DNA of 22,638 nt, from IMG/VR virus record IMGVR_UViG_3300021091_000454, positions 1 through 22,638 of that record. One strand, 5' to 3'. The position numbers were made by a program, and so were the translations under genes. Shown here piece by piece: positions 5,274-20,505 of the stretch (the first letter of the stretch is position 1; every line of letters begins with the position of its first letter). Under the pieces are notes generated by a model that saw only the letters and a list, made by a program, of their open reading frames with translations, did not search any database and was not told the DNA's origin. Origin of the DNA: a virus.

Positions 5274-6034
5274 TGGCTGGATACCTTGTCAGCGACGAAG
5301 ACCTCAAGCGCCTGGCGGCGGTGCTGTCCGACTATGAGCGAGGGTTGCTGAATACCAAGACGCTGCCAGAGGAGTTTGCCGGACAGCTCCCTATCGTGCA
5401 TGTTGTCAGGGTGTCAGGATCTCCGACCAGCGGCACCTATCCCGGCTACCTGCAGGAGTACAACGAGACCACGTCAACCTATACAGATCTTGACAGCATC
5501 TTGATCCGCGAGATCAACGGCGCCGCGCTGAATATCAACACGAAGTACATCGGCCGCTACGCCGGCGATGTGGCCACAGGCAGCGTCTATCTAGTCATTG
5601 CTACCGGCAGCTCATGCGAAACCCTGACGATTGATTTCATCACCTCGCTGTCCTGCGTTGATGGCGTGATTACGCCTGTGTATTCGACCGTTTGCATACC
5701 TTGCGCCTACATCTGCACGACGACCACGACGACAACAACGGCAGCGCCGACAAGCAGCACCACGACCAGCTCAACTTCAAGTACCACGACAGAAGAACCG
5801 ACTACCACCACGACCACGACTACGACAGAAGAACCGACAACGACTACGACAACGACAACGACAACGACGACAACATGCAATCCTGCAGCTTTTGGCTATG
5901 CCACTTGGGTTTGGACAGGTAGTTCCTGGAGCATGACGGGGAATTATTGCGACGAAAGTGCAGTCCCCGTCTCTCCAAATTTTAACGGTACAACGATAGG
6001 GCAAACGACATCAACATGCTGCGCGCCGACCTGA
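5273..6034 (+). CDS. Tail fibre-like protein with Thr-rich stalk and C-terminal Trp/Cys module
   Basis: 253 residues from ATG 5273 (TAATG overlap); a longer upstream extension of the frame is rejected because it lies inside the previous gene. Residues 1-145 form an N-terminal domain of unknown fold, probably the tail-attachment part, ending in a Cys cluster (CIPCAYIC). About 53 residues follow that are nearly all Thr with Ser, Ala and two TTEEPTT insertions. The C-terminus is one copy of a Trp/Cys module (ATWVWTGSSWSM, final TSTCCAPT) that recurs in the next two genes. I infer an adsorption or fibre role from place and architecture. Confidence 0.6.
   Translation: MAGYLVSDEDLKRLAAVLSDYERGLLNTKTLPEEFAGQLPIVHVVRVSGSPTSGTYPGYLQEYNETTSTYTDLDSILIREINGAALNINTKYIGRYAGDVATGSVYLVIATGSSCETLTIDFITSLSCVDGVITPVYSTVCIPCAYICTTTTTTTTAAPTSSTTTSSTSSTTTEEPTTTTTTTTTEEPTTTTTTTTTTTTTCNPAAFGYATWVWTGSSWSMTGNYCDESAVPVSPNFNGTTIGQTTSTCCAPT
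5717..5875 (+). repeat. Thr-coding low-complexity tract 1
   Basis: Continuous ACN-rich codons. It includes a 17-bp direct repeat (ACGACAGAAGAACCGAC at 5786-5802 and 5822-5838, 36 bp apart) and tandem ACAACG hexamers near the end. All units are multiples of three, so copy-number change would alter stalk length without shifting the frame. Confidence 0.9.
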
Positions 6035-6219: not shown

Positions 6220-7537
6220 ATACAACCTGTGCGAAACGACATGCGTTTGGATCTGGGACGGTAGTAGCTGGTCAATCCTGTCTAGCGATTGCACGGCGCC
6301 GTGCGAATGCTCGTACATGCCTCCAACGCCGGGTGAATTTATTGGCCAGGAGGTTCTAACTTGGTGCATCGACTCGACGCCGACTAGCACGACGACAACC
6401 GAGGAGCCAGTAAGTAGCACGACCACTACTACCACGACTACCACGACTACCACGACTACCACGACTGCGGCGCCATGCCAAGGAATTTGTCAGTACCAGT
6501 GGTCAAGTGCGCTTAACCAATGGTTTATTGAGTTTTCAGGATGCGTTGGCGAAGGCTGTGGATGTCCTCCACCTCCTGAGACACCGGGGGCAGTCAACGG
6601 CGAGACATGGGCTGACTACTGCATACCCGGTGGCACGACCACGACAACTACGACGACATCGACATCCAGTAGCTCGACCTCGACAAGCTCCAGCTCGACT
6701 ACCACGACATCCACCTCGACAAGCACTACCTCGACCAGCTCCAGTTCGACATCAAGCACTACGACGACCACAACAACCGCCGCGCCATGCACCGGCGGAT
6801 GCACTTGGCGCTGGTCCGCCGCTGGATCCGCATGGCTAAAATACGGTCCAGGCAACTGCTCAGATGGTTGCTCATGCCAAGCGCCAACGACGCCGGGAAC
6901 AGTAGATGGCGAATACCAGACGGTAAACTGTGCACGACTGACATGTCAGGCGTGCTGCGGAAATAATGATTGCTGTCCAATAATTTGCTGCGGCGAAACA
7001 ATTCCTGCAGTCCTTTATGTAACATTTAACATGGCTGGTTTATTTAATTGCATGGACGGAGTGTCCGTGCAAATCAATTTTGTTTCAAGGACCAACACAG
7101 TTCCAACTCTCTACAGTTACGCCAGCACTGGTTCTGTAAATTTTAACGGACTAAAATATCAAAAAGTCACCCCGTGCAACGGCCTGACATACTATCGGCT
7201 CGGTAACTGTTTTGGCGCCGCACAATACGATTGCGACAACGATTTGTATGTCCATGTCGGATTAAACATTGAATGCGGAGAAGGCGGCGGAACTATTTTG
7301 GGCGCTTTTATTTCGTGGATAGTTCAAGGCAAAGACATCTTTACACCATGCACATTTGTTGCGCGACAGGCAAACGGTTATCCAGTAAATTTTTCATGTC
7401 CTGTTTTGCCAATCAATTACACCATAGATTTTCCTAGTTATTTTGACAACTGCGAGTTAAGTGGATCAAATCCTAATGCGGGTATTGTTTATGGAAATCA
7501 AGCCGATGGCGCATTCACGCTGAGCCTGACCGAATGA
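6212..7537 (+). CDS. Modular tail fibre with three Trp/Cys modules and two Thr/Ser stalks
   Basis: 441 residues. Order: module A (about 5-52, CVWIWDGSSWS with CECSYMPPTPGE), stalk of about 30 Thr/Ser, module B (about 90-135, CQYQWSSALNQW, CGCPPPPETPG), stalk of about 48 alternating Thr and Ser, module C (about 193-235, CTWRWSAAGSAWL, CSCQAPTTPG), then a Cys-rich hinge (CQACCGNNDCCPIICC) and a C-terminal domain of about 185 residues of unknown fold. That last domain is encoded by clearly AT-richer DNA (about 6955-7510), suggesting separate acquisition, as is common for receptor-binding tips. The even number of cysteines per module suggests disulphides. A receptor-binding role is inferred. Confidence 0.6.
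   Translation: MPEYNLCETTCVWIWDGSSWSILSSDCTAPCECSYMPPTPGEFIGQEVLTWCIDSTPTSTTTTEEPVSSTTTTTTTTTTTTTTTTAAPCQGICQYQWSSALNQWFIEFSGCVGEGCGCPPPPETPGAVNGETWADYCIPGGTTTTTTTTSTSSSSTSTSSSSTTTTSTSTSTTSTSSSSTSSTTTTTTTAAPCTGGCTWRWSAAGSAWLKYGPGNCSDGCSCQAPTTPGTVDGEYQTVNCARLTCQACCGNNDCCPIICCGETIPAVLYVTFNMAGLFNCMDGVSVQINFVSRTNTVPTLYSYASTGSVNFNGLKYQKVTPCNGLTYYRLGNCFGAAQYDCDNDLYVHVGLNIECGEGGGTILGAFISWIVQGKDIFTPCTFVARQANGYPVNFSCPVLPINYTIDFPSYFDNCELSGSNPNAGIVYGNQADGAFTLSLTE
6377..6466 (+). repeat. Thr-coding tract 2 with 9-bp tandem repeat
   Basis: It contains the 9-bp unit ACTACCACG in four perfect tandem copies (6428-6463) inside a Thr/Ser-coding stretch. The unit is in frame (Thr-Thr-Thr). Confidence 0.9.
6635..6778 (+). 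repeat. Thr/Ser-coding tract 3
   Basis: Alternating ACN and AGC/TCG codons, for example repeats of TCGACNAGCTCC-like units, code for about 48 Thr and Ser residues linking modules B and C of the fibre. Confidence 0.9.
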
Positions 7538-11262: not shown

Positions 11263-12393
11263 TCATCCCCATTTTTCGACCACGGCCTCGACGCGCCTTC
11301 TTGGCACGGCGGCATATCGGCCTGTAATGGAGGTGGAGCCGGTGGAAATCGAGTCATCGTCGCCACGGCCGTGATGGCCGAGGATGGCACCGATGATCGA
11401 CTCGGGAACCATGCGGCCAACCAAAAAAGTGGCAGAAGTGTGCCGAACCTGTTGCGGGTTGTACGGCGGAAGTCCAAGCCGTTTGGTCGCTCGCGTGAAT
11501 GCCAGTCTGTAGGCGTCACTATCCCGAGGCTTGCTCATGGCCTGACAATTTACTCTTACATTCATTTTTCTAGCTGGAAAAAGGTAGCCACTTTTCAGTA
11601 GCAGTGGCGCCAGCAGTTTGCGAGCGCGAGGACCGACAAGGATAGTCAGCGCATGACCTCGCCAAGTGTTTTTGTGTACCCGAGGTGTGTACCGCCAAGG
11701 CTTAATAGATTGATCGATTTCGTCTGTCTGGACGCGAAGCGCCGTTTCCGTGCGCTGGCCAGTCAAAAGTTGCCAAGCCAAAACGGTTTTCCAAGGTTCC
11801 TTGAGCTGACGAAGGATCATGAACAGATGTTTTCTTGGTATTGGCTGCACTTTCTTTGACGGCCGGGTTTCTCCCTGGCGAAGCGCTGGCAGCGTGCGCA
11901 TGCGCAAATACTGCGCCTCATCCATAAGGTCTAAGCCAGCGCCCCACTTGAACATCTGCAACACAATACGCATGTATTCACGGATTGTTTTGCGCGCAAG
12001 GCCTCGCAGGATCAGGGTTTGCCGTATGGCAACAAGGTCCGCTTTGCCTACCTCATGCAGCGGACGGACGGCCAGCTCGGCCATGTGCTCTCGCATGACC
12101 GACCTAACTACCCCTAGCGTCTCGGTTTCGACACCATCGACGGTTCTGTAAACCCTTTGGCAGTCAGCATAAAAAAGAGCCATGAGTCCAGCCACCTGAG
12201 CCGGCCTCGCCACTGCCGCAGCGCTGACGCCGACATCCTGCGCATACCTGCGCACCCAAGCGTTGTAGCGCTCGACGCTTTGAATTGTGTTGGCGCGTCC
12301 AAAGTAATGCCGGGTTCCGGTTCTCGGGTCTCGCACATACGCCAGACCCTTGGCCTTGTGATGGCACAGCTTTGGTACTTTTTTGTGTACCAT
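11263..12393 (-). CDS. int: Tyrosine recombinase, phage integrase
   Basis: 376 residues from ATG 12393. The frame extends further upstream but would run through the tRNA fragment, so that extension is rejected. The N-terminus (KLCHHKAKGLAYVRD, GTRHYFG) looks like an arm-binding domain, with a core-binding helical domain at about 65-160. The catalytic domain has LLTGQRTETALR (R214), K241 in a beta-hairpin, QQVRHTSATF (R317, H318; the usual first His of HxxR is Gln), LGHHG (H340/H341) and ITGRYAAV (nucleophile Y360). It catalyses attP x attB recombination. Arm-type repeats overlap its start codon, implying self-regulation. Confidence 0.92.
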   Translation of the reverse strand: MVHKKVPKLCHHKAKGLAYVRDPRTGTRHYFGRANTIQSVERYNAWVRRYAQDVGVSAAAVARPAQVAGLMALFYADCQRVYRTVDGVETETLGVVRSVMREHMAELAVRPLHEVGKADLVAIRQTLILRGLARKTIREYMRIVLQMFKWGAGLDLMDEAQYLRMRTLPALRQGETRPSKKVQPIPRKHLFMILRQLKEPWKTVLAWQLLTGQRTETALRVQTDEIDQSIKPWRYTPRVHKNTWRGHALTILVGPRARKLLAPLLLKSGYLFPARKMNVRVNCQAMSKPRDSDAYRLAFTRATKRLGLPPYNPQQVRHTSATFLVGRMVPESIIGAILGHHGRGDDDSISTGSTSITGRYAAVPRRRVEAVVEKWG

Positions 12394-12610
12394 TTGCGTT
12401 TTTTGTGTACCGGCTTTTTGTCGTAAGTCGAGTCGGGGCGACAGGATTCGAACCTGCGACCTCTTGGTCCCGAACCAATCTAAAATGAATAGATAAGTCG
12501 TTGTCTTACAAGACTTTGCGTCAATAAGCCTAGAAAATTTTGTGTACGCAAAACCCGCAAAAACCCCGCGTTTTTGTGTGCTGCGTTTTGGAATTGTGTA
12601 CCTTGTGTAC
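12381..12610 (+). repeat. Arm-type integrase binding repeats (TTTTGTGTAC) flanking attP
   Basis: Direct copies of TTTTGTGTACC: 12381-12391, 12401-12411 on one side of the core; 12538-12547, 12572-12581 (TTTTGTGTGC), 12592-12602 (AATTGTGTACC) and 12601-12610 (CCTTGTGTAC) on the other. Several starts are 20 bp apart, about two helical turns. The first copy overlaps the int start codon. A further copy at 11670-11680 lies inside int and is probably coincidental. Confidence 0.75.
12433..12479 (-). other. attP: attP core: 3' half of tRNA-Pro (CGG)
   Basis: Read on the - strand this is the anticodon loop (TTGG-TTCGGGA-CCAA, anticodon CGG), variable region, T arm (GCAGG-TTCGAAT-CCTGT) and acceptor 3' strand CGCCCCG plus A of a bacterial tRNA-Pro. 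The 5' half is absent: identity stops at the anticodon stem and AT-rich DNA follows. This is the classic attP design in which integration rebuilds the host tRNA. The anticodon-stem inverted repeat (12464-12478) is the likely crossover region. It is not itself a functional tRNA. Confidence 0.85.
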
Positions 12611-12639
12611 TTGCCGGACAAGTCCTGTGGCTGTAATTT
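12611..12639 (+). promoter_or_regulatory. Putative promoter for the excisionase-like gene
   Basis: TTGCCG (12611-12616), a 17-base spacer, and TAATTT (12634-12639) on the + strand form a sigma-70-like promoter directly after the last arm repeat. Sequence inference only. Confidence 0.4.
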
Positions 12640-12660
12640 TTTCAATACTGCGACTTGTCC
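12616..12660. promoter_or_regulatory. Putative operator pair GGACAAGTC / GACTTGTCC
   Basis: GGACAAGTCC (12616-12625, itself a dyad) lies in the promoter spacer, and its 9-bp inverted counterpart GACTTGTCC (12652-12660) lies after the -10 element. Such a pair over a promoter is typical of repressor or excisionase sites; the RHH protein at 12957-13193 is a candidate binder. Confidence 0.4.
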
Positions 12661-12690
12661 AATTTTAATGAACAGTCGTACAGTAACAGA

Positions 12691-12764
12691 AGTAAGGACA
12701 TCCCTTACTCCGGCGCCTGGATGTCGCCGCAATGAGCGCAGAGGTGCGCACCCCATTGATGGGG
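12691..12764 (+). promoter_or_regulatory. Leader hairpins before the excisionase-like gene
   Basis: Three perfect stems lie in the presumed 5' leader: AGTAAGG-ACATC-CCTTACT (12691-12709), GCGCA-GAGG-TGCGC (12736-12749) and CCCCAT-TG-ATGGGG (12751-12764). The last contains the G-rich ribosome binding site of GTG 12773 and is followed by GTTTGTTTGT, so it could block translation or cause attenuation. Confidence 0.45.
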
Positions 12765-16467: not shown

Positions 16468-17262
16468 ATGTCCTGGATCAAGTTACGCACCAATCTTGCT
16501 GACGACCCATCCGTGTGGCTGATCGCTGACACGCTGGAGCTTGACCACTACGCAGTCATTGGTCGACTCTGCGCCATGTGGGCGTGGTTCGACGGCCAGG
16601 CGACGGCTGAGAACCCTTGGGTCGCCGTCACGACCGCTGCGCTGGACAGGCGCCTTGGATGTCCCGGCTGGTGCGACGCATGCTGTGCGGCCGGCTGGCT
16701 CATCATTCAGGAAGGCCGAGTCGGTATTCCGAATTTCGAGCGACACAACGGCCAGTCTGCCAAGGATCGCGTCCTGATGCAGTCTCGCCAGTTTAGGCAC
16801 CGAGACCGTGCCGGACGGTTTGAGCCGGCGTCACCGGCTGGTCAGAGTGGCGTCACGGTGGCGTCACGCTCGCGTCACGCTCATGTCACGGTGGCGTCAC
16901 GCTCATGTCACGGTGACACCGTGACGCCACTGGCACCTAGTGCGACAGTGGCAAATGATGAAAATCGTAAACCCTTACAGGATAAAGAACTCTCTGGTCA
17001 CGGTGGGAGCGTGACGCCACGGCGCACTGGCGTCACGGTCGGCCGTGACAAAAGCGTGACATCAGCGTCCCAAGATAGAGGAGAGAGAGGAGAAAGAGAG
17101 AGGAGAGAAGAGGAGCCAGACGCCTCACCCATTAACAATCTTTCATCAATTCCAAACCAAGACCCAGACGCAAAGGCGGCGCTGCATGCCGCGTGGATAA
17201 AAAAGCTGGCCGAGGTGCAGGCGAAGTCCGCCAAGCCTCCGGCCACGGAGGTGGCGCCATGA
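16468..17262 (+). CDS. Phage replication initiator, O-like, carrying the origin
   Basis: 264 residues from ATG 16468, AAGGAG at 16454-16459. Residues 1-110 look like a winged-helix initiator domain: MSWIKLRTNLADDPSVWLIA, VIGRLCAMWAWFD, ALDRRLGCPGW, CCAAGWLI and GIPNFERHNGQSAKDR. These match phage DnaA-like/replisome-organiser N-termini. The middle (about 120-200) is low-complexity because the DNA carries 11-bp iterons; 33-bp periods give 11-residue repeats such as GVTVASRSRHA. A run of Arg/Glu/Gly follows, then a short C-terminal helix (AALHAAWIKKLAEVQ). By analogy with lambda O it binds its own gene to start replication. Confidence 0.65.
   Translation: MSWIKLRTNLADDPSVWLIADTLELDHYAVIGRLCAMWAWFDGQATAENPWVAVTTAALDRRLGCPGWCDACCAAGWLIIQEGRVGIPNFERHNGQSAKDRVLMQSRQFRHRDRAGRFEPASPAGQSGVTVASRSRHAHVTVASRSCHGDTVTPLAPSATVANDENRKPLQDKELSGHGGSVTPRRTGVTVGRDKSVTSASQDRGERGERERREEEPDASPINNLSSIPNQDPDAKAALHAAWIKKLAEVQAKSAKPPATEVAP
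16828..17070. other. ori: Putative replication origin: 11-bp iterons and AT-rich segment
   Basis: Consensus GCGTCACGSTS recurs at exact 11-bp spacing from 16850, 16861, 16872, 16883, 16894 and 16905 (four GCGTCACG, two ATGTCACG), with degenerate units at 16828 and 16839. GTCACGGTG at 16907-16915 faces CACCGTGAC at 16917-16925. A lower-GC stretch follows (about 16951-16995). A second cluster has copies in both orientations (16995-17005, 17009-17018, 17029-17038, 17044-17049, 17054-17060). Iterons next to an AT-rich segment inside an initiator gene is the lambda ori design. Confidence 0.7.
17077..17115 (+). repeat. 39-base uninterrupted polypurine tract
   Basis: Only A and G over 39 bases, coding for an Arg/Gly/Glu run in the initiator. 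It directly follows the second iteron cluster. Mirror-like purine tracts can form triplex DNA or help strand opening; here it may be part of the origin. Confidence 0.7.
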
Positions 17263-17441
17263 ACAAGGACCGGATCATCAGCGAGATCGAGACGCGGTAC
17301 GAGCACACGCAGGCCGGCATCGATGTGTCCTGGATGGCCAACGAGCTGGCGTGGATGCGCATGCTGCTGCGCCAGCACTTTGGCGACAACCCGCCGGCGT
17401 GGGTGCGGCTGGTGCTGGACGACCAAGAGGCGAGCGCATGA
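17259..17441 (+). CDS. Hypothetical small protein between the initiator and Zn-protein genes
   Basis: 60 residues from ATG 17259 (ATGA overlap), with GGAGG (17247-17251) 7 bases upstream. A longer in-frame start at 17193 is rejected in favour of this one. Two helices (MNKDRIISEIETRYEH, VSWMANELAWMRMLLRQHFG) and an acidic end. No family recognised. Tight overlap with the initiator gene and the following Zn-binding protein suggests a replication accessory role. Confidence 0.6.
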   Translation: MNKDRIISEIETRYEHTQAGIDVSWMANELAWMRMLLRQHFGDNPPAWVRLVLDDQEASA

Positions 17442-18073
17442 CTGACTTTATCCCATGGTGGGAGCTGTATCAATCGCTCGGGTTCATGACGCAGCCCAAG
17501 CAGTCCGTCACGCTCCAGGCGTGGGCGACCTTGTTTGATCAGGAAGGCCGGACCAACGACGAGATGGTGCAGGTAGTGCACGCCATTGCCAGGCGGACCA
17601 AGATGCCGTCGTTTGCCGAGGAGCACCTGCAGGCGATCCGCGAGGAGCTGCGGCGCATGGACTACGAGAGCTCAATAGTGGCTCCCGTTGTGGTAAACCG
17701 CGCGCCTTGTCCACTGTGCTTTGACTGCGGCATTGTCTGCGGCCTGCCTCACTCACGGCAGATCACCAACGACGGCGTGTGGACGGGGACCATTGGGGGA
17801 CCGGCGAGCACGCAGTGCGCCAAGTGCGACAGGTGCAATGTCGGACGGTCGATTGGTGGCGGCATGATCACGCTGACGCAGTACGAGAGCGCGAACCCGC
17901 ACTGGCAGTTGCAGCTTGAGTTTTATCGACAGTACAAGTCGCTCGAGAACGAGAAGGACCGCGTCGCGCGGAAAGATCCATCGGCGCAATATCCTGAGTC
18001 ATCTGCCGAGGTCGAGTCGAGCAGAAAGCTGAGCGAGACCATCGAAAAAATTCTAGCCAAGGTGCGCGCATGA
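17438..18073 (+). CDS. Zinc-finger protein, helicase-loader candidate
   Basis: 211 residues from ATG 17438 (ATGA overlap). The N-terminal 75 residues are helical (FIPWWELYQSLGFMTQPKQS, LQAWATLFDQEGRTNDEMVQ), resembling replisome-organiser or loader helical domains that count small repeated helices. Then CPLCFDCGIVCG and CAKCDRC provide a probable zinc site, split by a 45-residue insert. The C-terminus is a charged helix. As the second gene after an O-like initiator it occupies the position of lambda P-type loaders; that function is inferred by place only. Confidence 0.5.
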   Translation: MTDFIPWWELYQSLGFMTQPKQSVTLQAWATLFDQEGRTNDEMVQVVHAIARRTKMPSFAEEHLQAIREELRRMDYESSIVAPVVVNRAPCPLCFDCGIVCGLPHSRQITNDGVWTGTIGGPASTQCAKCDRCNVGRSIGGGMITLTQYESANPHWQLQLEFYRQYKSLENEKDRVARKDPSAQYPESSAEVESSRKLSETIEKILAKVRA

Positions 18074-18285
18074 AGGTCTCTATCACCGTCGAGGAGGGAC
18101 TGGTCGACATCGAGATCGGCCTGACTCCGGACAAGTCGATGCTCTACCTGCACACGGTGCGGGATGGTCGCGTTAACAGCGTGACATCGTTGACCACTAA
18201 CCAGACACGGATGGTCATGATGGCGCTGGATGCGGTCTCGGATGAAATCACCGAGCCAGATGAGGATGACGATGTCGAGGAGTAG
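18070..18285 (+). CDS. Hypothetical small acidic protein
   Basis: 71 residues in ATGA overlap. A beta-rich first half (MKVSITVEEGLVDIEIGLT, MLYLHTVRDGRVNSV), one helix (TRMVMMALDAVSDEI), and a strongly acidic tail (EPDEDDDVEE). The tail could mimic DNA or mediate partner binding, but no family is recognised. It overlaps the sigma factor gene by 14 bases. Confidence 0.55.
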   Translation: MKVSITVEEGLVDIEIGLTPDKSMLYLHTVRDGRVNSVTSLTTNQTRMVMMALDAVSDEITEPDEDDDVEE

Positions 18286-18820
18286 GAACAGGGTTCTGAC
18301 GCGGGAGCAGCAGGAACTGGTCGAGCAGAACATCTCGCTGGCGTATTGGTTTTCCAGGCGCATGCGCAAGCCGGTCGACCTGACTCACGAGGAGTGGGAG
18401 TCGGAGTGCCTGCTGGCGCTGGTGATCGCTGCGGAGTCGCACAATCCGGATCTCGGCAGCTTCTCTAATTATGTCGGCGTCTGCGTGCGCAGTAGGAGGT
18501 CGCACTGCGTGAACTATTACACGCGCAGCAAACGCACAGGCAAGACCATAGCTCTAGGCAAGTTTGAGCCGTTTGTGCGCAGCTCCGAGTGCGTGGATGC
18601 CGACGCAATATCGAGGGATGAGCAGCGCAAGTGCCGAGAGCTGGTGGCGAGGCTGCCGCAGCCGCATCGGTGCATCATGTTGCGCCGACTGGCCAACGAA
18701 ACCCTAAAGCAGATCGGCGACAGCCTTGGTTTGACTCGGGAAAGGATTAGGCAACTCGAGCAAGAGTCGATGCGCCGCATGCTGCGATTCATTCGATGTG
18801 ACGAGAAGAGACTAGCATGA
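18272..18820 (+). CDS. RNA polymerase sigma-70 family factor
   Basis: 182 residues from ATG 18272, with GAGG (18262-18265) correctly spaced; ATGs at 18260 and 18266 are in frame but less suited. Region 2 covers about 13-75: LVEQNISLAYWFSRRM, DLTHEEWESECLLALVIAAE and GSFSNYVGVCVRSR. Region 4 covers about 125-175: LPQPHRCIMLRRLANETLKQ and IGDSLGLTRERIRQLEQE, a clear HTH. Region 3 is absent, as in small group 3/4 sigmas. It should direct RNA polymerase to a phage promoter set, plausibly late genes. ATGA-linked to DUF3310. Confidence 0.85.
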   Translation: MSRSRNRVLTREQQELVEQNISLAYWFSRRMRKPVDLTHEEWESECLLALVIAAESHNPDLGSFSNYVGVCVRSRRSHCVNYYTRSKRTGKTIALGKFEPFVRSSECVDADAISRDEQRKCRELVARLPQPHRCIMLRRLANETLKQIGDSLGLTRERIRQLEQESMRRMLRFIRCDEKRLA

Positions 18821-19246: not shown

Positions 19247-19496
19247 CGCCTTGTCGCTCGGCACGATCACGGAAATAGAGCGCCGGTGGTGCGACACCAC
19301 GGCGCAGACGACGCACTGGCATGGATGCCATGCGGACCACGCGGGGTGCGCGGTCCGGCTCCTGGTGGCAGAGATTGACCGGCTACGGGATGTGGTCCAG
19401 TCTCTGCTGGGGTTACAGCAGCATGAAGCTGACGATATCGATGAGGTCTCTGGCGTCCGCGCTCCGGCAGCTCGGCCGCGTCCTAAGAAAAACTGA
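19209..19496 (+). CDS. Hypothetical small protein before the sliding clamp gene
   Basis: 95 residues from ATG 19209 (TGATG overlap with DUF3310). It has a His/Cys-containing middle (RRWCDTTAQTTHWHGCHADH), a helix (CAVRLLVAEIDRLRDVVQSL) and a basic Pro-rich tail. The Cys and His could bind metal. No family recognised. The last 74 bases overlap the sliding clamp gene in another frame. Confidence 0.5.
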   Translation: MSGSRRSHDKSLSALSLGTITEIERRWCDTTAQTTHWHGCHADHAGCAVRLLVAEIDRLRDVVQSLLGLQQHEADDIDEVSGVRAPAARPRPKKN

Positions 19497-20505
19497 GTCC
19501 AAGGTCACCAAGCTAAGCATCGTTGCGCATCGTCCTGGCGAGGCGATGCTGTCGGCTTCCGATGCCAAATCAGGTGTCTGGATGTCGGTGTGGATACCTG
19601 TCAGCCAACACGATGCACAGGTTGGCGACATCGCTTTGCCATCCGAGCAGTTGGCCGCCATTCTTGCCACGGCGCAAACACCTGATCTGGACCTGACCCA
19701 CGACGAAAACGGCACCACTATCACATCGGCCTCGGCCGAGTGGAAGTTGTCTCCGATCGATCTGTCATTGGTCCATGGACTTCCTGACACCGGTGGCAAA
19801 AAAACGCTGTTCAGTTGCGAGCCGGCTGTATTGAGTGCTGGCATCGCCAGCGTCGAACATGCGGTGGCATCCGAGACGGCCAGGTTTACGATGACGGGCC
19901 TTTTGATCGAGTCGAGCAAGACAGGGGTGCGACTCGTCTGCACTGATGGCAGGCGCTTGGCCATCCGCGAGATCGACTGCGTGCAGGGATCTGTCGGCGA
20001 CATCCTGCTGCCTCGCGCGTCTATGCAGGTGTTCGATTTTGAAGGCGCGAGCGAAACCAGAGTCGAGGCAAGCCGAAACCATGTCACGGTTAATTGGTTC
20101 AAGGACGGCCTGCCAGTGGCCGTGCTGACCGCCGCGCTGCTGGAAGGAAAGTTTCCGGCATATAGGGAAGTGCTACCAAAGGAGCCTGCCTACGGTTGCG
20201 TGCATCACATCGAGGGTCTGGTCAGTGCCATTAAGCAGGTAGCTTGTGTTTCGGAGCTCAACAGGGTGGATGTCGAATATCTGCCTGGCAAAGTCGTGCT
20301 GAGCTCCAGCAGCACTCACGGCAAGGCTCAAGTCGAGGTGGCATGCGAGCACGAAATATCGGCAAAGTTCGCCGCCAACTCTCGGTACCTCCTCGATGCA
20401 CTCGCGGCAATCGACCAACCGACGGCGACGATAAGCCTGTCGAAGCAGCCAAGTATCATCATCCAGTCGCGGGATCTGTACCAGCTCGTGATGCCATTGA
20501 GCTGA
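19423..20505 (+). CDS. dnaN: DNA polymerase III beta sliding clamp
   Basis: 360 residues from ATG 19423, matching the usual 360-370 of bacterial DnaN. Three repeated clamp domains are visible: MKLTISMRSLASALRQLGRV, IALPSEQLAAILATAQTPDL; second FTMTGLLIESSKTGVRLVCT, DGRRLAIREI; third KVVLSSSSTHGKAQVEVACE, SRYLLDALAAI, ending in QLVMPLS like bacterial clamps. The clamp encircles DNA and tethers polymerase and other clamp-binding enzymes. No phage polymerase is seen in the window, so it likely serves a host or redirected host polymerase. It overlaps the previous gene by 74 bases. Confidence 0.88.
   Translation: MKLTISMRSLASALRQLGRVLRKTESKVTKLSIVAHRPGEAMLSASDAKSGVWMSVWIPVSQHDAQVGDIALPSEQLAAILATAQTPDLDLTHDENGTTITSASAEWKLSPIDLSLVHGLPDTGGKKTLFSCEPAVLSAGIASVEHAVASETARFTMTGLLIESSKTGVRLVCTDGRRLAIREIDCVQGSVGDILLPRASMQVFDFEGASETRVEASRNHVTVNWFKDGLPVAVLTAALLEGKFPAYREVLPKEPAYGCVHHIEGLVSAIKQVACVSELNRVDVEYLPGKVVLSSSSTHGKAQVEVACEHEISAKFAANSRYLLDALAAIDQPTATISLSKQPSIIIQSRDLYQLVMPLS

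Follow-up and report, generated by a model that had tools for sequence, protein, structure and literature searches.

A probable replication origin of short, helically phased repeats within a phage initiator gene

INTRODUCTION

Replication origins that lie inside the gene for their own initiator are already known, as in lambda O and pSK41 Rep. The lambda origin sits between the parts of O that encode the N-terminal DNA-binding domain and the C-terminal domain, and its initiator-bound iterons adjoin an unwinding region (PMC7466680, PMC5043065). In Stx phages, extra iterons add residues to O (PMC7466680, PMC5043065). Here, we describe an element at positions 16828 to 17115 of a 22,638-nucleotide viral sequence (IMG/VR record IMGVR_UViG_3300021091_000454, referred to in full as the window), where an array of short repeats and a purine tract are embedded in a gene of an initiator family. 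We conclude that this element is very probably a phage replication origin located within the coding sequence of its initiator.

The window locus resembles lambda in the position of the element within the gene, in the proximity of iterons to a candidate unwinding region, and, among annotated relatives, in gene order. Lambda iterons, however, are inverted repeats of ~18 to 19 bp that bind O dimers beside an AT-rich tract, whereas the window has cores of 5 to 6 bp that are mostly direct, lie one helical turn apart, and are accompanied by a purine tract. The initial annotation, which described an origin in the style of lambda, is refined accordingly: these are short cores spaced by one turn, not iterons of 18 to 19 bp. 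Plasmid pSK41 carries four Rep boxes centrally in rep, and the central region that they encode is a dispensable linker (PMC5703833); its RepA_N initiator belongs to a different family, found in plasmids of firmicutes. In the Rep_3-type iteron plasmids RK2, F, and P1, direct iterons in helical phase likewise lie close to an unwinding region (PMC5043065), but their initiators are unrelated to that of the window. At bacterial oriC, the DnaA box and DnaA-trio likewise place double-strand sites beside a short tandem repeat. This likeness is one of arrangement, and single-strand binding of the tract by the phage initiator would be conjectural. The iterons of Rep_3-type plasmids are longer and generally lie outside the rep coding sequence. 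The PHROG 2509 initiators of Rac (YdaU of strain 442/2), epsilon15, TL-2011b, CP2, and Pseudomonas phage VW-6S have a homologous N-terminal domain and, as in the window, cores followed by a purine tract. Searches of open-access literature found no described origin for this family.

RESULTS

An array of 11-bp repeats lies within an initiator gene

The gene and the sites within it are as follows (window coordinates).

16468-17262, plus strand: initiator gene, 264 amino acids (PHROG 2509 match, tblastn matches, AlphaFold model)
16468-16812, plus strand: N-terminal domain, conserved up to the motif HNGxx[AS]KxR; proposed site-recognition domain (alignments A1 and A2, fold neighbours)
16828-16849, plus strand: two decayed iteron units, GCGTCACCGGC and TGGTCAGAGTG (window sequence, comparison with L002)
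16850-16915, plus strand: six direct iterons with core GTCACG at exact 11-bp spacing (cores 16852-16907)
16907-16925, no strand: perfect 19-bp palindrome, GTCACGGTG-A-CACCGTGAC (facing half-sites)
16949-16995, no strand: lower-GC segment between the clusters, 36% guanine-cytosine (GC) content against 58% for the window
16997-17060, no strand: second cluster of mixed orientation, with GTCAC at 16997 and 17032 and GTGAC at 17011, 17045, and 17056
17072-17115, plus strand: polypurine tract AAGATAGAGGAGAGAGAGGAGAAAGAGAGAGGAGAGAAGAGGAG, counterpart of the AGAAG-repeat tract of relatives

GTCAC cores at 16830, 16852, 16863, 16874, 16885, 16896, and 16907, together with GTCAG at 16841, fall on a single exact 11-bp register, which bears out the earlier description of six exact units plus two degenerate ones. 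In L002, the closest relative (94% protein identity), the counterparts of the decayed units are GCGTCACCGTG and TGGTCACGGTG, both with intact cores. The open reading frame (ORF) contains 29 pairs of identical 5-mers at 11 bp, whereas 1000 dinucleotide shuffles gave 1.04 on average and never more than 7; the array is also the densest 6-mer cluster within the window. The facing half-sites that had been noted (16907-16915 and 16917-16925) form the perfect palindrome, and the second, mixed-orientation cluster was found with its five cores. In total, the array has 14 sites in two clusters and no GTTAC or GTAAC. The 11-residue protein repeat that had been read from this DNA is also present (VTVASRSRHAH / VTVASRSCHGD). 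The initial annotation ended the element at 17070; the iterons and clusters lie within its span (16828-17070), but the purine tract just past its end was overlooked.

The window protein matched the PHROG 2509 "replication initiation protein" profile over residues 2 to 116 (E = 2.6e-34). This similarity stops at residue 116, and the protein belongs to the family by its N-terminal domain only. Matches by tblastn were to proteins of epsilon15, TL-2011b, Rac (YdaU), and CP2, which are labeled as replication initiation, primosomal, or YdaU proteins. The protein comprises a DNA-binding N-terminal domain (approximately residues 1 to 115), a linker encoded by the putative origin, and a short C-terminal tail. 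The AlphaFold model of the N-terminal domain is confident (predicted local distance difference test [pLDDT] score, 86); its closest folds are predicted viral initiator-like proteins, and replisome organizers match more weakly. No O-type initiator was matched in PHROGs or Pfam, which places the protein outside the lambda O family as searched, and its score against Phage_rep_org_N (PF09681), 14.4 to 17.6 bits, is below the curated cut-off of 23.3. A sequence search of the PDB gave no match, and fold similarity to 4pt7 ("Structure of initiator") and 5kbj ("Structure of Rep-DNA complex") was weak and non-significant.

Sites and tract recur at the same place in relatives

Relatives were gathered from IMG/VR, GTDB genomes, and named phages and reduced to 104. 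The sites and tract occupy the same mid-gene place in most of them, and annotated relatives have the initiator gene within a lambda-like gene order. Together with the PHROG 2509 domain, this recurrence upholds the proposal of a lambda-style origin in an initiator gene. A core word could be assigned in 101 of the 104 loci (GTTAC in 77, GTCAC in 10, GTCCGC in 10, GTCTAC in 2, and GCGCCAC in 2), although one or two of the GTCCGC assignments (e.g., L172) are doubtful. Cores in the same orientation are most often 11 bp (64) or 12 bp (50) apart, with a second peak at 22 to 24 bp (21), and inverted pairs are 14 bp (64) or 25 bp (13) apart. Cores occur in all three reading frames, and 68 of the 101 loci use more than one. 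GTTAC cores number 287, compared with 83.8 ± 6.4 when synonymous codons are shuffled so that both the protein and its codon usage are preserved. The corresponding pooled count of GTCAC (51, with 70.8 expected) was uninformative because most loci use another word. A shuffle test for repeated 6-mers at each locus was positive in 35 of 102 but is too weak for short arrays, and the pooled tests replaced it.

The purine tract, typically AGAGAAGAGAAGAG, starts 1 to 3 nucleotides after the last core in 95 of the 104 relatives. Purine runs of at least 15 nucleotides are found in 92 of 104, but 61% of synonymous shuffles reach this length as well; because run length is a weak measure, a codon test was used instead. 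AGA accounts for 149 of 157 arginine codons in the tract and for 126 of 1599 elsewhere. The tract is a more consistent feature of the family than the lower-GC gap. In most PHROG 2509 relatives, approximately 3 to 6 sites precede a clean tract of AGAGAAGAG. Arrays in the window and in L003 (45% protein identity to the window) are expanded, to 14 and 17 sites, respectively, and have two clusters, a decayed last core, and an irregular tract.

The DNA of the array is conserved while the encoded linker changes

L002 carries the same array as the window. Between the two, the N-terminal domain has 19 synonymous and 3 nonsynonymous changes, whereas array and tract have 1 synonymous and 8 nonsynonymous changes (domain versus array, Fisher P = 1.7e-4). 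Synonymous divergence is 0.226 in the DNA-binding domain but only 0.015 in the array, where nonsynonymous divergence is higher, in agreement with the earlier suggestion that DNA function overrides protein sequence here. Across 47 related pairs, the ratio of nonsynonymous to synonymous change (pN/pS) rises from 0.11 in the domain to 0.62 in the linker, and synonymous divergence falls from 0.398 to 0.246; the linker was compared over a fixed ungapped window, where some misalignment is possible. Collectively, these data support quantitatively that the DNA at the putative origin is conserved while the encoded linker is free to change.

The 17 sites of L003 lie nearly all in 11-bp runs, and each reads GTTAC or GTAAC, with no GTCAC or GTGAC in the array. 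A concerted change of word at constant spacing is what binding sites would show if the specificity of their protein had changed; a protein repeat would not be expected to behave in this way.

Rac prophages exchange the domain, sites, and tract together

The Rac prophages of strains 442/2 and MG1655 have two flanks in common, at 87% and 92% identity, but the stretch between them, which holds the first 427 nucleotides of ydaU and spans the N-terminal domain, sites, and tract, is dissimilar, and homology returns right after the tract. MG1655 YdaU is of a different N-terminal type, with a DUF1376-type domain and its own repeats (TGTTCA at 33-bp steps). The two ydaU genes (L618:5120-5977, which is MG1655, and L018:1228-2016) have unrelated N-terminal domains on a common C terminus, each with its own repeats and tract. 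Gene order in Rac is lambda-like (repressor, cII- and cro-like regulators, initiator, and DnaC-like protein). An exchange of domain plus origin on a shared C terminus is common to Rac and the pSK41/pPR9 pair, as the N-terminal domain and origin of pPR9 are swapped together and the C terminus is kept (PMC5703833). An active origin, oriJ, is reported for Rac (PMC3945230); its position in Rac was not found in literature searches, and it supports no claim here.

Similar arrays occur in other initiator genes

A search by DNA alone, in which the pattern was two sites of the GTCCGC version followed by the tract, found 120 loci in IMG/VR, 115 of which have the initiator motif upstream. Three copies of CGTNACG at 11-bp spacing were found at 73 loci. 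When 54 ORFs that cover such arrays were scanned, they matched many initiator, replisome-organizer, and DnaD-like PHROGs, as did 11 of 16 ORFs earlier judged doubtful. A short tandem repeat follows the array within 130 bp in 23 of 46 such ORFs, compared with 0 of 44 upstream controls. Arrays lie in initiator-like ORFs at 54 of 73 loci with 11-bp spacing, 26 of 68 with 10-bp spacing, and 43 of at least 120 with 12-bp spacing, a control that is indicative only, as the 11-bp set supplied the queries and the loci with 12-bp spacing are those among the matches listed. This wider pattern goes beyond the PHROG 2509 finding itself and should be taken as a lead.

Initiator genes of other families with 11-bp CGTNACG arrays include those of L361, L364, L368, L377, L384, L390, L413, L417, and L421. 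The short tandem repeats behind such arrays include (ACAGAG)n, (CAGATA)n, (CATA)n, and (CAGGCT)n, which encode protein repeats such as TETETE, DTDTDT, or QAQAQA. In L498, L536, L590, and L608, CGTNACG triplets spaced at 12 bp precede AACAAT repeats; these loci were not recognized as initiators and possibly represent another initiator family.

On the tree of N-terminal domains (103 rows, with many forks unresolved), the site word requires ~15 changes. Residue 100 is arginine in 9 of 10 GTCCGC rows and at all 115 loci from the DNA pattern. It was rejected as the sole determinant of the word. Arginine also occurs at 7 of 32 GCGTGAC loci and in one GTTAC row; a comparison of independent pairs gave 4 to 0 with 1 tie, which does not reach significance (P = 0.125); and the window and L003 share D100 despite their different words.

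Neighboring genes and other features of the window

Two ORFs follow the initiator gene.

17259-17441, plus strand: ORF of 60 amino acids, next in the operon, no match in family searches
17438-18073, plus strand: ORF of 211 amino acids, candidate helicase loader by position only (neighborhood in L002 and L003, annotated relatives)

Counterparts of the 17438-18073 product are encoded close to the initiator in both L002 (98%) and L003 (41%), and the ORF occupies the place at which annotated relatives have a DnaC-like helicase loader. The product matched no family and has a cysteine-rich stretch, CPLCFDCG...CAKCDRC. From its position, it is possibly the helicase loader.

Just past the replication genes, 18230-18820 encodes a sigma-70 region 4 protein (89% identity in L002 and 23% in L003). 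Region 19471-20505 encodes a phage sliding-clamp homologue (DNA polymerase III beta, Pfam E of ~1e-8), of which the L003 phage has a divergent homologue (32%). A tyrosine integrase (Pfam Phage_integrase) on the minus strand at 11263-12756 suggests that the window phage is temperate. Tandem repeats of the ACGACA and ACCACGACT types at 5786-5874, 6422-6466, and 6647-6751 lie in large ORFs outside the replication region and are probably Thr/Ser-rich protein repeats.

DISCUSSION

The array is by far best read as a set of in-gene iterons of the lambda type that would be bound by the initiator, a reading that the sequence comparisons support. By analogy with lambda O and pSK41 Rep, we propose that binding leads to opening and then to helicase loading. 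Copies of the initiator N-terminal domain would bind the GTCACG cores, and the direct 11-bp spacing would align consecutive protein units along the same face of the helix, with the facing copies and the second cluster completing a multi-protein assembly. This assembly may strain and open nearby DNA, most likely the tract at 17072-17115, perhaps the low-GC gap. As an easily melted region, either is a candidate only: the 36% GC of the gap is a modest dip, and the tract is conserved in the family but has 49% GC in the window. The tract is a candidate site for unwinding or single-strand engagement, and the low-GC segment is at most a possible unwinding site. A partner, possibly the product of 17438-18073, would then bring the host replicative helicase, and replication would start here.

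Several points weigh against this interpretation. Searches turned up no binding, footprinting, or replication data on any family member. Unlike its epsilon15 counterpart, the window protein has no DnaT-like C-terminal domain, and a fold search of the PDB with its model gave no significant match, so that its DNA-binding fold is not independently fixed. A recognizable helicase loader was not found after the initiator, where neither ORF (17259-17441 or 17438-18073) matches a family, which makes the helicase-loading step the least certain. The lower-GC segment of the initial annotation is real but modest, being approximately the 12th lowest 40-bp stretch in the window. The GC-skew peak suggested as a check did not appear, as skew has no switch at the array, near 17 kb, and on the present fragment this check is uninformative. 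In addition, an array bound by the initiator could serve autoregulation or copy control besides, or instead of, initiation.

If the last point held exclusively, the array would be an operator or copy-control element for the initiator or another phage regulator, and replication would start elsewhere. Arrays of initiator sites in iteron plasmids do also serve control (PMC5043065). The array lies mid-gene, however, with no promoter-like match found in or just before it; site-tract layouts recur mid-gene in most relatives; and in Rac, the array and the N-terminal domain are exchanged as one unit. We therefore consider pure control improbable. A fold in the mRNA that governs translation or stability of the initiator is less probable still. 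Predicted RNA folding is far stronger than in shuffles (z = -6.8), but facing copies of one word fold automatically, there is no Rfam match, and the most regular feature, the 11- to 12-bp spacing of direct copies, would be left unexplained. The least likely account, to which we give hardly any weight, is that of a mere low-complexity protein linker whose DNA repeat arose by tandem duplication of coding sequence. The 11-residue repeat is indeed present in the protein, and slippage can give simple tandem repeats; this account does not fit nearly frozen synonymous sites alongside changing amino acids, cores in three frames and both orientations, the concerted switch of all L003 sites to another word in unchanged phase, or tract arginine codons that are almost solely AGA.

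Searches of open-access literature, a scope outside which most subscription papers fall, turned up no account of a short core repeated at one-turn spacing, of a purine tract with this codon signature, or of site words that change in concert; an earlier description, perhaps in a review of phage replication modules, is possible. More tentatively, and as something less likely than not, we suggest that many phage initiators from various sequence families share one design. In it, short GTNAC-type sites one helical turn apart within the gene would be followed by a short tandem repeat (AGAAG, ACAGAG, CAGATA, CATA, and others) that the initiator engages as single strands, and the word would evolve in step with a few N-terminal residues, giving a recognition code readable from sequence.

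An in-gene origin of the kind proposed for the window would provide a concrete, testable origin for a large and little-studied group of phage initiators that includes those of epsilon15 and a Rac prophage. The phasing rule together with the tract could serve to find origins in the sequences of many phage genomes. Pairs of sister proteins whose words differ (the window and L003; L183 and L184) make the code of protein-DNA recognition directly testable. The locus is also a clean natural case in which DNA function constrains a coding sequence while the encoded protein drifts.
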